This document shows, one piece after another, positions 53,282 through 63,745 of a stretch of DNA of 64,000 nucleotides; position 1 is the first letter of the stretch; every line of letters starts with the position of its first letter. Source of the DNA: Natrinema salaciae (lineage in GTDB: Archaea > Halobacteriota > Halobacteria > Halobacteriales > Natrialbaceae); assembly GCF_900110865.1 (NCBI RefSeq), contig NZ_FOFD01000002.1, forward strand, positions 1-64,000. The letters run 5' to 3'. The position numbers and the translations under genes were made by a program. A model generated the notes under the pieces. The model was not told the origin of the DNA. It saw only the letters and a program-made list of their open reading frames with translations, and did no database searches.

Positions 53282-53743
53282 ATGGAGACGCTTCATCCTC
53301 GAATCAGACTGCTCTGGATCGCGCGCGGGGCGCTCGCGGCGATCGGCCTCGGCGTCGCGCTCGCCGCCATCGACCAGTGGCTGTTCGGCGTGCCGCTGGT
53401 CGCGATCGCCGGAGTCGTCGCGCTCGGACTCTTCCTCGGCGTCGTCTACGCCGTCCGCCTCTATCAGGTCTGGCGGTTCGAGTTGCAAGCCGACGCGCTC
53501 TATCTCGAGCGCGGCGTGGTCACCCTCGTCGAGACCGCGGTTCCATTCGTTCGCGTCCAGCACGTCGACACGCAGTTCGGTCCCGTCGAACGGCTACTCG
53601 GCCTCTCGAGCGTCGTGGTCTACACGGCCGGCTCTCGAAACGCGGACGTTCGGATCCCGGGACTGACGCCGGACCGTGCCCGAAGCCTGCAGGATACGCT
53701 TCGCGAACTGGCCGTGGAGAGCGAGGCCGAGGATGCCGTCTGA
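53282..53743 (+). CDS. PH-domain (bPH2, YdbS-like) membrane protein, operon 1
   Basis: A 153-residue protein with two membrane helices (about 12-32 and 38-60) and a bacterial PH-like domain: VWRFELQADALYLERGVVTLVETAVPFVRVQHVDTQFGPVERLLGLSSVVVYTAG. It overlaps the larger PH-domain gene by 11 bp. YdbS/YdbT-type pairs form membrane complexes in bacteria and some affect antimicrobial resistance; the archaeal role is unknown. A closely similar protein is encoded at 63257-63745. Confidence 0.88.
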   Translation: METLHPRIRLLWIARGALAAIGLGVALAAIDQWLFGVPLVAIAGVVALGLFLGVVYAVRLYQVWRFELQADALYLERGVVTLVETAVPFVRVQHVDTQFGPVERLLGLSSVVVYTAGSRNADVRIPGLTPDRARSLQDTLRELAVESEAEDAV

Positions 53744-55358
53744 CGCGAACCGACTGCATCCGCTCAGTGCGGTGTCGCTGGCCCTCCAGCGGGGCATCAC
53801 CGGATTTTCCGTTCCGTTTTTCCTCGCGGCCGTTGCGGGCATCGTCGGCATGGATGTCGACCGCACCGTCGACGTCCTGTTCGTGCTGTCCCCGATCGGG
53901 TTCGTCGTCGGCGTCGGCTACGGGCTCGCGTACTACTACCGGTTCACCTACGAGGTCACGTCGGACACGTTCGACGTGACCTCGGGCGTGGTCTCTCGAC
54001 GCTCCCGCGAGATCCCCTACCGCCGCATCCAGAACGTCGACGTCGCACAGGGCGTCGTCCAGCGCGTGCTCGGACTCGCCGTCGTCTCCATCGAGACCGC
54101 CGGCGGGGGCGACACCGAGGCGACGCTGAACTACGTTAGCGAGAACGAAGCTGAGCGGCTTCGATCGGAGATCCGCCGATTGACGGCGAAAACTGACGAC
54201 GAAGGGGCCACCGACGAACGAACGGCTCGGACGAGTCCGGCCGATTCGACCGCCGGCATCGACGAGACCACGCGACGGGAACGGGCTCGAGACGAGGGGA
54301 GGCCGATCCGCCTGTTCGAACTCGAGTTCCGCGAGCTCCTCGTTTACGCCCTGACTTCGTTTCGGTGGGGCGCGGCGGTGTTCCCGATCGCGCTGCTGTT
54401 CTTCGTGGGGGGTGCCGACTCCGGTTCGGGACCGGTGCCCGAATTTCTCCTGTTGGCCGCCGAGCCCTTCGGCGGGCCGGAGGGGGTCGAGGGTGCTGCC
54501 CTCGGCCAGCTACTCGTCCTGACAGCGATCACTGCGCTCCAGTGGACGGCCGCTACGTACGTCGCGAGCGCGATCTACACCGTCGCGAACTACTACGGGT
54601 TCCGACTCGGGCGAGCGGGAGACGACTTCGTCTACGAGCGCGGGCTGATCCAGCGCTACAGCGGCTCGATCCCCGCCGAGAAGGTCCAGTCGGTCTCCGT
54701 CACCGAGAACCCGCTCCAGCGGCTGGTCGGCTACGCCGGCCTCTGGGTCGAAACGGCGGGCTACGGACCCGATAGCAGTAGCGGCAGCCAGTCGGCCGTC
54801 CCGCTGGCCGACACCGATCGCGTCTACCGATTCGCCGAGAACTTGACCGGCGTCGAGACGCCCGAATTCCGGCGGGCACCGCGGTTGGCTCGCCGGCGAT
54901 ATCTCGCCCGCTACGCCATCGTCGCGGCCGCCGTCGTGGGTATCGCGTTCGGGCTCGCGCAGGTTTCGACCGTCGACCGCTGGTATCTCACGGCCGTCGT
55001 CTTCGTCGCGGTGCCACCCGCCGCTCACCTGAAATACGTCAACCTCGGCTACTTCGTCGGCGAGGACCACCTCGTGATCCGAAGCGGGTTCTGGAAGCGC
55101 CGAACGACCGTGATCCCGTACTACCGGATACAGACGGTCTCGACGCGCCGATCGATCTTCCAGCGCCGGCTCGGGCTCGCGTCGCTGGCCGTCGACACCG
55201 CCAGCTCACGGACGTTCGCCTGGGGGACACCGACGATTTACGACGTCGACCTCGAGACGGCTCGCGAGATCCACGGCACGGGCCGGAAACGGCTCCAATC
55301 GACACTGCGCGAGCGCGCTCGAGCGGACGATATCGGCCTTTCGGTGGATTTTACCTGA
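53733..55358 (+). CDS. Large PH-domain (YdbT-like) membrane protein, operon 1
   Basis: A 541-residue protein with three bPH2 domains interleaved with membrane helices: the first around 75-135 (FDVTSGVVSRRSREIPYRRIQNVDVAQ), the second around 315-375 (FVYERGLIQRYSGSIPAEKVQSVSVTE) and the third near the C-terminus (SGFWKRRTTVIPYYRIQTVSTRR). An acidic linker follows the first PH domain. Its last 16 codons lie in the 61-bp repeat copied again before fumC. The start at 53733 overlaps the upstream gene. Confidence 0.88.
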   Translation: MPSDANRLHPLSAVSLALQRGITGFSVPFFLAAVAGIVGMDVDRTVDVLFVLSPIGFVVGVGYGLAYYYRFTYEVTSDTFDVTSGVVSRRSREIPYRRIQNVDVAQGVVQRVLGLAVVSIETAGGGDTEATLNYVSENEAERLRSEIRRLTAKTDDEGATDERTARTSPADSTAGIDETTRRERARDEGRPIRLFELEFRELLVYALTSFRWGAAVFPIALLFFVGGADSGSGPVPEFLLLAAEPFGGPEGVEGAALGQLLVLTAITALQWTAATYVASAIYTVANYYGFRLGRAGDDFVYERGLIQRYSGSIPAEKVQSVSVTENPLQRLVGYAGLWVETAGYGPDSSSGSQSAVPLADTDRVYRFAENLTGVETPEFRRAPRLARRRYLARYAIVAAAVVGIAFGLAQVSTVDRWYLTAVVFVAVPPAAHLKYVNLGYFVGEDHLVIRSGFWKRRTTVIPYYRIQTVSTRRSIFQRRLGLASLAVDTASSRTFAWGTPTIYDVDLETAREIHGTGRKRLQSTLRERARADDIGLSVDFT

Positions 55359-55370
55359 TCGGTCTCGACG
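55310..55370 (+). repeat. Direct repeat copy A (end of PH gene)
   Basis: Its first 49 bp (55310-55358) are identical to 56728-56776 and the next 12 bp have two mismatches. Copy A spans the last 16 codons and the stop codon of the PH gene. Together with copy B it brackets the inverted Na/Pi-symporter-like gene. Confidence 0.95.
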
Positions 55371-55417
55371 CCGTCCGGGTTGTCGATAACGCTGCCTTCC
55401 GCCCCTCTCCTCGGCCC

Positions 55418-55440
55418 AACTCGTCCGTTCCGGACGAGTT
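55418..55440. terminator. Perfect 10-bp stem-loop after the PH operon
   Basis: AACTCGTCCG and CGGACGAGTT pair perfectly around a 3-nt loop (TTC). It lies between the convergent PH gene and the symporter-like gene, 60 bp after the former's stop and 43 bp before the latter's stop, so it could end transcription from both sides or protect 3' ends. There is no T tract immediately after it. It sits inside the segment bracketed by the 61-bp repeats. Confidence 0.5.
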
Positions 55441-55482
55441 CTCACCCGCCCAATCACTGACGATGGACTGCAGGGCCAGGGG

Positions 55483-56583
55483 TCAAGGGAACACGATGAG
55501 CAATAGCGGAACGAGCAGTAGCGAGAGGAGAACGCCGACGAAGTAGCCCGTGTTGTCGATGATTCGATTCTGGGCTCTGTCGATGAGCCTACCGTATGGC
55601 GCGTAGAACGCGAGCACGACCACCGACATGCCGGAGCCGATGGCCACCAGAACGAGGACGATCCGAATCCCGACGAACGTGTTCAATGCGACCGCGACGA
55701 CGAGCGTATCGATCAACGTCCCGATGTTCGCGCCCAGCACGAACGGCATGATCTCGCTTCGTTTGATATGTCCGCGGTTGTAGAGCGGAACGATCACGCC
55801 AAGCGAAAACGCGACGCTCGTCGTAACCCCCGTGACGACGAGCCCGAGTCCGAACGACACCCACTTGTCCTGTAACCTCGAGACGTAGCGCCGACGCAGC
55901 CGCTGTTTATCGATGCCATCGAGTATGCGATCGAACAACTGGAGGCTCAGGAGAATACAGCCGATCGCCAAGAGAAACGCGACGCCACCTCCGACGACGT
56001 CGATGAGTCCGTCGGTGACAATCGACAGCACGTCCGGGAGCGAGACCTCGAGGTCGGAAAGTGCCTGACTGCGTCTCTTCTCCGTCCGAATCGCTGGCAT
56101 CGCGGCGTATCCCAGTACCATCGCGGGCAGGTAGATCGAGTGGGTGAGCAGGAAGGTGAGGAGCCCGAGGCTCATCGACTCGCGGAGCGATTCGACCTCC
56201 TCGTTCAGGTAATCGAACGCCCCGATAAAGACGACGACGGCCCCACCGCCGAGCCGGGAGCCGACGATCATCAAGAACAGTTGCGACGGGAGAACGAGTC
56301 CCGAGTTGAACAGGGACAGCGAGAGGGCGGCGACGATCGACCCGTTGGCTAACACGTACGAGGCGATCCAACTGAGGCCGAGTGCCGATCCGTCGTCGAC
56401 GATAATCCGACTCAATATACCCCTGAGCGACGGTGTGAGCGCATCCGTTGCAGACCCCAATAACCGTATCGCGAAGAGGAACAGGACGACCGTCGCGACG
56501 ACCTGTACCGCGACCACCAGAGACGAGTCGTCGCGCAGCCATCCCGTACTGGTCTCCCGACTGATGTCCTCCACCCAGCACAC
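55483..56583 (-). CDS. Na+/phosphate symporter-like membrane protein
   Basis: A 366-residue protein with about eight to nine helices, related to Na/Pi-cotransporter repeats (LFLFAIRLLGSATDAL, ILSRIIVDDGSALGLSWIASYVLANGSIVAALSLSLFNSG, and the second half FGLGLVVTGVTTSVAFSLGVIVPLYNRGHIKRSEIMPFVLGANIGT). The second repeat keeps the GANIGT block, but the QSSS motifs that bind sodium and phosphate are altered (SLSL and TTSVAFS). Substrate or activity may therefore differ. GTG start at 56583. It is transcribed against its neighbours and is bracketed by the 61-bp direct repeats. Confidence 0.75.
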   Translation of the reverse strand: MCWVEDISRETSTGWLRDDSSLVVAVQVVATVVLFLFAIRLLGSATDALTPSLRGILSRIIVDDGSALGLSWIASYVLANGSIVAALSLSLFNSGLVLPSQLFLMIVGSRLGGGAVVVFIGAFDYLNEEVESLRESMSLGLLTFLLTHSIYLPAMVLGYAAMPAIRTEKRRSQALSDLEVSLPDVLSIVTDGLIDVVGGGVAFLLAIGCILLSLQLFDRILDGIDKQRLRRRYVSRLQDKWVSFGLGLVVTGVTTSVAFSLGVIVPLYNRGHIKRSEIMPFVLGANIGTLIDTLVVAVALNTFVGIRIVLVLVAIGSGMSVVVLAFYAPYGRLIDRAQNRIIDNTGYFVGVLLSLLLVPLLLIVFP

Positions 56584-56727
56584 GTTACATGCGAGGCCGG
56601 GTAAAGTATTGTTCAGGTCTTGACGAAAAACGGGATATCGAACGTCTCGTTTCCGCGTTCACAGATTCGATCGCGAAACGAGCGGGTCCGCTCGTCGCCG
56701 AGACCACCAGCCCCGTTCGGCCTCGAA

Positions 56728-56788
56728 CGAGCGCGCTCGAGCGGACGATATCGGCCTTTCGGTGGATTTTACCTGACCGGTCCCGACG
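56728..56788 (+). repeat. Direct repeat copy B (fumC promoter)
   Basis: The 61-bp partner of 55310-55370. In this copy the repeat is non-coding and ends 9 bp before the fumC start codon. It contains GGATTTTACC at 56764-56773, a TATA-like element about 28 bp upstream of the fumC ATG, so the fumC promoter lies in the repeat. Confidence 0.95.
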
Positions 56789-56796
56789 CTCCGCGT

Positions 56797-63256: not shown

Positions 63257-63745
63257 ATGGAACGGCTCACTCCGCGAGTGCGAGTCGTCTGGCTCGGTCT
63301 CGCGATCGCGCGAGCCGCGATTCTCGGCGGGATTCTCGTGGGCGCGGCGATCGTTCTCACGCGCACCGGCGTCTGGGAATCCGCACCCGCGGCCCTCGTC
63401 CCGGCTGCCGCCGGAGTCGCGCTCCTCCTCGCTCTCCTGCGCGTGCTCGTGGTCTGGCTGCGCTACGGCGTCTGGCGGTTCGAACTCCGGGACGACGACC
63501 TCTACATCGAACGTGGCGTCTTCACCCGCGTCAAGACGGTCGTCCCCTACGTTCGGGTCCAGCACGTCGACTCCCGGCGCTCTCCGCTCGAGCGAACCAC
63601 CGACCTCGCGACGGTCGTCGTCTACACGGCCGGCTCCCGAAGTTCGGACGTCGCGATCCCCGGACTGACGCCGGAACGCGCCGAGGACCTGCAGGAATCC
63701 CTTCGCCGACTCGCGATCGAGAGCGCGGGTGAGGACGCGGTATGA
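63257..63745 (+). CDS. PH-domain (bPH2, YdbS-like) membrane protein, operon 2
   Basis: A 162-residue paralogue of the protein at 53282-53743: two membrane helices, then [55 protein letters not shown] and [29 protein letters not shown]. The block from VWRFEL to the end aligns almost residue by residue with operon 1. The ATG at 63257 is supported by an upstream TATA-like element. It overlaps the next gene by 4 bp (ATGA). Confidence 0.88.

Follow-up and report, generated by a model that had tools for sequence, protein, structure and literature searches.

Putative duplication of a fumC promoter embedded in the end of an upstream PH-domain gene, with unrelated genes between the copies, in Natrinema and related haloarchaea

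Results

In Natrinema, the last codons of the PH-domain gene upstream of fumC also contain the predicted fumC promoter, an arrangement that is the usual, and probably ancestral, state in this genus and in several related genera. In the window (the whole 64,000-nucleotide stretch analyzed, from the Natrinema species referred to here as G000), this junction is present twice, as a direct repeat that brackets a Na/Pi-symporter-like gene. As a likely history, the junction would have been duplicated, the cargo would have entered between the two copies, and recombination would later have re-homogenized them. Comparison with about 110 relatives suggests that such separations of the two neighbors happened many times, without a dedicated integration enzyme.

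The repeat occupies 55310-55371 and 56728-56789 (spacing 1418) and is identical at 60 of 62 bp, with no mismatch in the first 49. A match of 59 of 61 bp with the first 49 identical had been described in the original prediction; recomputation reproduced it and extended it to the present length. Copy A had been said to hold 16 codons and a stop, a count that is corrected here to 15 complete codons and the stop (55356-55358). Likewise, copy B does carry the presumed TATA element of fumC, but not 9 bp before the ATG as proposed: the TTTTAC element starts 30 bp before it, and copy B ends 8 bp before it. The locus is composed as follows.

53676..55358, + strand: PH gene; ORF of 560 aa with bPH_2 domains, whose last codons (S-V-D-F-T-stop) correspond to the predicted fumC promoter core of empty-site relatives
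55310..55371, + strand: repeat copy A; the PH gene end (15 codons, stop at 55356-55358) plus 13 bp
55349..55354, + strand: TTTTAC in copy A; D-F-T codons, promoter-type sequence still kept
55372..55482, no strand: left spacer from copy A to the symporter stop; no blastn match in G006, G028 or G007
55483..56583, - strand: cargo gene, a Na/Pi-symporter-like membrane protein of 366 aa (Na_Pi_cotrans, Pfam E 1.5e-14)
56584..56637, - strand: region upstream of the symporter gene, moving together with it; homologs lie at unrelated loci in G028 and G007
56638..56727, no strand: right spacer, also present at the G006 site; a profile search gives a weak match to the PH tail over its final ~18 bp (from 56710)
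56728..56789, + strand: repeat copy B; holds the predicted fumC promoter core and ends 8 bp before the fumC ATG (56797)
56767..56772, + strand: TTTTAC, presumed TATA element, starting 30 bp before the fumC ATG (TTWT consensus, PMC4983044)
56797..58209, + strand: fumC, a class II fumarase/aspartase superfamily lyase of 470 aa

A genome search for further copies of the repeat or of the 1.4-kb segment had been proposed and was run. The 20-mer TTTCGGTGGATTTTACCTGA, with up to 3 mismatches allowed, occurs at exactly two sites in the 4.86-Mb genome, which are the two repeat copies (control, 0 matches), and the 1.4-kb segment between them occurs once. The window has just one other direct repeat of 35 bp or longer, which reflects PH-gene paralogy. 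This second repeat (53468-53743 and 63470-63745) shows 73% identity and is old; a second PH-domain gene pair lies ~6-10 kb downstream of fumC (paralog G000:C2:63739-65256), so that in most relatives the fumC region lies between the products of an old PH-pair duplication.

If the PH gene and fumC were once adjacent, with the fumC promoter overlapping the PH gene end, as originally proposed, empty sites are expected among relatives. The comparison covered the region upstream of fumC in 28 other Natrinema genomes and in about 80 genomes from elsewhere in the family. In 19 of the 29 Natrinema genomes, ~24 bp separate the PH gene end from the fumC ATG and a single junction copy serves both genes, which makes the empty site the commonest state within the genus; empty PH-fumC junctions are also present in other genera of the family. 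In Natrinema thermotolerans (CP031304), blastn matches to both query ends fall within 135 bp of each other, fitting the same empty junction. In these sites, CTTTCGGTGGATTTTACCTGA is the predicted fumC promoter core and simultaneously the last PH codons, L-S-V-D-F-T-stop. Both the former adjacency and the overlap are thus borne out, with copies A and B in the window restoring the PH end and the predicted promoter, respectively.

The position of TTTTAC at -30 of fumC fits the haloarchaeal TATA consensus, TTWT, and a leaderless start, as found for 72% of protein-coding transcripts in Haloferax volcanii (PMC4983044); on this basis we infer promoter activity for the core. A promoter lying inside an upstream coding sequence is expected to constrain codons beyond their protein-coding role, and such a constraint was found. 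The Phe codon of the PH tail is TTT in 45 of 45 overlapped genes versus TTC in 31 of 40 separated ones (Fisher, 2e-15), and in the body of the PH gene TTT makes up only 12% of Phe codons (19 overlapped Natrinema). That TTT is fixed in overlapped genes, while TTC prevails in separated ones, points to a promoter constraint on the codons that is released once a second copy exists. The SVDFT tail was found in none of 19 PH paralogs away from fumC, a few of whose tails are possibly in the wrong frame. In Natronomonas and Actinarchaeum as well, fumC has a similar promoter core upstream of it, which makes it probable that the promoter came first.

The repeat core is the conserved predicted fumC promoter itself, rather than a by-product of insertion. 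This also speaks for a different explanation, that the repeat is merely a conserved regulatory motif present twice and that the cargo-bearing gene order is ancestral and was lost elsewhere; the small-membrane-protein clade described below, which mixes occupied and empty species, makes exact losses plausible there. However, only two sister species have the Na/Pi cargo at this site, the overlap exists without it in other genera, and near-identity over 62 bp far exceeds the ~16-bp core. We therefore regard an ancestral cargo order as very unlikely.

The cargo is lineage-specific, and three types are found at the Natrinema junction: the Na/Pi gene (G000 and its sister species, G006), a small membrane protein of ~107 aa without a Pfam match (G007, G009, G013) and an ABC-transporter operon (G011, G014, G025, G021). 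Every cargo site gives two overlapping matches to a profile of the 19 empty junctions, and the overlap amounts to 80 columns in G000, 117 in G007, 91 in G009, 100 in G013 and 25-48 in the ABC sites. For G000, the profile lengthens the duplicated part to ~56710-56789 in copy B, with weak conservation in the extra 18 bp (from 56710). In G007, a decayed fumC 5' end follows directly on copy A (score 55, versus 34 for the best of 300 shuffles), so the duplication there reached into both genes. This extension into fumC is clear in G007 and weak in G013 (5 of 300 shuffles were as good); flanks beyond the repeat, tested singly, gave no significant match in G000 (beyond 62 bp), G006 or G009.

Copy B begins at nearly the same PH codon (profile positions 154-158) in G000, G006, G007, G009 and G013, which carry two unrelated cargo types. 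A single ancient duplication, a boundary set by a functional upstream region, or coincidence may explain this common left edge. The small-membrane-protein gene occurs in 3 of 61 genomes, always at the PH-fumC site and in a clade with four empty species, and its divergence does not track that of the PH gene. This distribution could stem from transfer, from precise loss through recombination between the repeats, or from both.

Direct repeats that flank an insert and restore a gene 3' end resemble the attachment sites of integrases, as the original prediction had remarked while noting that no integrase is present. Both statements stand: the PH gene end is restored, and no integrase or recombinase gene was found in the 1.4-kb insert or among the ORFs of the other cargo stretches. 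That the locus is the remnant of an integrase-dependent element with the PH gene end as its attachment site is nevertheless extremely unlikely, since there is no match in viral contigs or phages and no further copy in the genome, and since the three cargoes are unrelated, the duplicated length varies from 25 to 117 profile columns, and duplications without cargo exist. Transposon insertion with target-site duplication would likewise leave the insert flanked by direct repeats, but neither a transposase nor inverted repeats at the insert ends were found, and to our knowledge a duplication of ~62-80 bp is far above the length of known target-site duplications; we count this explanation as refuted.

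The homologous block that contains the symporter gene has one edge at the stop codon (55483) and the other near 56637. In G028 and G007, the same gene is found at an unrelated locus, next to another transporter gene. In this two-gene cassette, the Na/Pi gene is 93% identical between G028 and G007 while their PH genes are only 78% identical, so the gene seems to move between genomes; the contrast suggests recent transfer. The neighboring transporter gene of G028 had no match in eight genomes, in a search without a positive control. Matches on plasmids comprised symporter homologs and one empty junction.

Across the family, the overlapped state was compared with the separated one in 113 genomes. 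The overlap is present in 45 of them; in 42, the PH tail and a separate promoter lie at most ~1.1 kb from each other; 9 have cargo genes; and the remaining 17 lack a PH gene in the stretch read. Classes were assigned by sequence pattern and an ORF-length rule, with G030 and G078 corrected by hand and three Natrinema moved to the cargo class. In non-overlapped genomes, the segment is mostly present in two copies, the PH tail on the left and the promoter on the right, and the left copy drifts, its constraint relaxed. On a quick and rough protein tree built from short fumC pieces and PH, the overlapped label changes 13 times, and well-supported branches force at least 10 of these changes. An in-register stop triplet lies behind 21 of 45 separated promoters, versus a local rate of 1.9%; this is expected if the separated promoters are relics of a coding end, although these bases may have a promoter role. 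Duplications without cargo are seen in G071, where nothing lies between two near-identical cores spaced 31 bp apart, and in G035 and G032.

These cargo-free duplications bear on how the insert arrived. The original prediction had a ~1.4-kb segment inserted while duplicating the junction. Its insertion agrees with the empty sites of relatives, but because other lineages show the duplication without cargo, duplication and insertion may be two steps. A single step would involve cargo DNA that brought its own junction copy by a single crossover, or break repair that copied ~80 bp. Every cargo site indeed has the duplication, the cargo gene does move between genomes, and cargo-free duplication was seen in none of the 29 Natrinema genomes. 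Yet it does occur in other genera, and both copies in G007 and in G009 are host-type throughout the core, whereas mosaic copies would be expected after a single crossover with a foreign one. A one-step insertion is thus possible, though on the unlikely side. Under the preferred two-step history, the PH-end/fumC-promoter junction would have been duplicated in the ancestor of G000 and G006, after which one copy would only end the PH gene and the other only drive fumC, and the Na/Pi-symporter-like gene with its own upstream region would then have come to lie between them. Insertion into the overlap without two copies would damage one neighbor, so that only duplicated states would survive. Since no cargo-free duplication was seen in Natrinema, we infer rather than observe that duplication preceded insertion in this genus.

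G000 and G006 are sisters (support 100/99) and have the insert in common, with 82% identity from the symporter stop through to fumC. The symporter gene (87% identity) and the PH gene (83.5%) have diverged about equally between them, which points to one insertion, likely before the two species split. Copies A and B within a genome differ at 0 of 49 positions in G000, 0 in G009 and 1 in G007, and at 20 of 51 in G006 and 11 in G013, and orthologous A copies differ at 13 positions between G000 and G006 and at 4 between G007 and G009. Within-genome copies are therefore closer to each other than orthologous ones in G000, G007 and G009 (0-1 of 49 versus 4-13), unlike in G006 (20) and G013 (11). Both A copies, of G000 and of G006, have TGAT behind the stop codon, where all other rows have TGAC, and a common origin of the copies is likely.

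The insertion in G000 is not dated by the near-identity of its two copies, because the sister species has the same insert with strongly decayed copies; this contrast points to later homogenization. The simplest account would be that the copies share an origin and that their first ~49 bp were later converted in G000, through recombination between them, although a younger, separate insertion in G000 may also have given near-identical copies. We know of no experimental case of homogenization between 60-bp repeats 1.4 kb apart. In G006, a third, decayed junction copy lies at -121 to -69 of fumC, just before the copy presumed to work as the promoter.

Discussion

The locus offers a base-by-base natural record of how neighbors that share sequence may become separable: after duplication of the common piece, each copy retains a single role, and new genes take up the space between the two. 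In haloarchaeal operon-like structures, widening of the gap between neighboring genes together with gain of an internal promoter was counted in 108 of 466 cases (Seitzer et al. 2020, PMC7760734). The present locus resembles those events in both respects. The difference is that the accessible part of that report counts events and describes no route through duplication of a promoter in a coding end, whereas overlapped, duplicated and cargo-bearing states are all found here. Our literature search found no account of this PH-fumC locus and no description of separation by promoter duplication.

Like the integrase attachment sites of genomic islands and integrated viruses, the locus has direct repeats that flank cargo, with one copy restoring a gene end. 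It differs from them in the lack of an integrase, the unrelated cargoes, the variable repeat length and the cargo-free duplications, and in that the second copy is the predicted promoter of the other neighbor. Direct repeats on either side of a gene, one of which restores a gene end, thus need not imply an integrase, and near-identical repeats are not necessarily young. For the proposed homogenization, the closest likeness is the efficient gene conversion between genome copies of the polyploid Haloferax volcanii (PMC8223754), which is also non-reciprocal recombination in a haloarchaeon. In that system, however, allelic genome copies and long tracts are involved, while conversion here would act on ~60-bp repeats 0.6-1.4 kb apart and is deduced from sequence comparison.

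A further, speculative reading, which we think unlikely, is that the duplicated junction would serve as a reusable docking site without an integrase, at which host recombination keeps the copies alike, admits cargo by crossover and removes it exactly. If so, different genes would come and go between the same two neighbors across species.

Three minor observations concern single lineages. In G021, the PH gene clusters with those of its own relatives, but both the ABC-operon junction and the fumC start (ATGAGC) are those of another Natrinema clade, a pattern that looks like fumC-side transfer between species. In genus g41 (L206, L208, L210), fumC seems N-terminally extended from an upstream ATG, and the promoter that overlaps the PH end precedes that ATG. 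In G027, the PH gene has been lost and ~110 bp of its tail are kept before fumC, as though selection acted on the promoter part alone.
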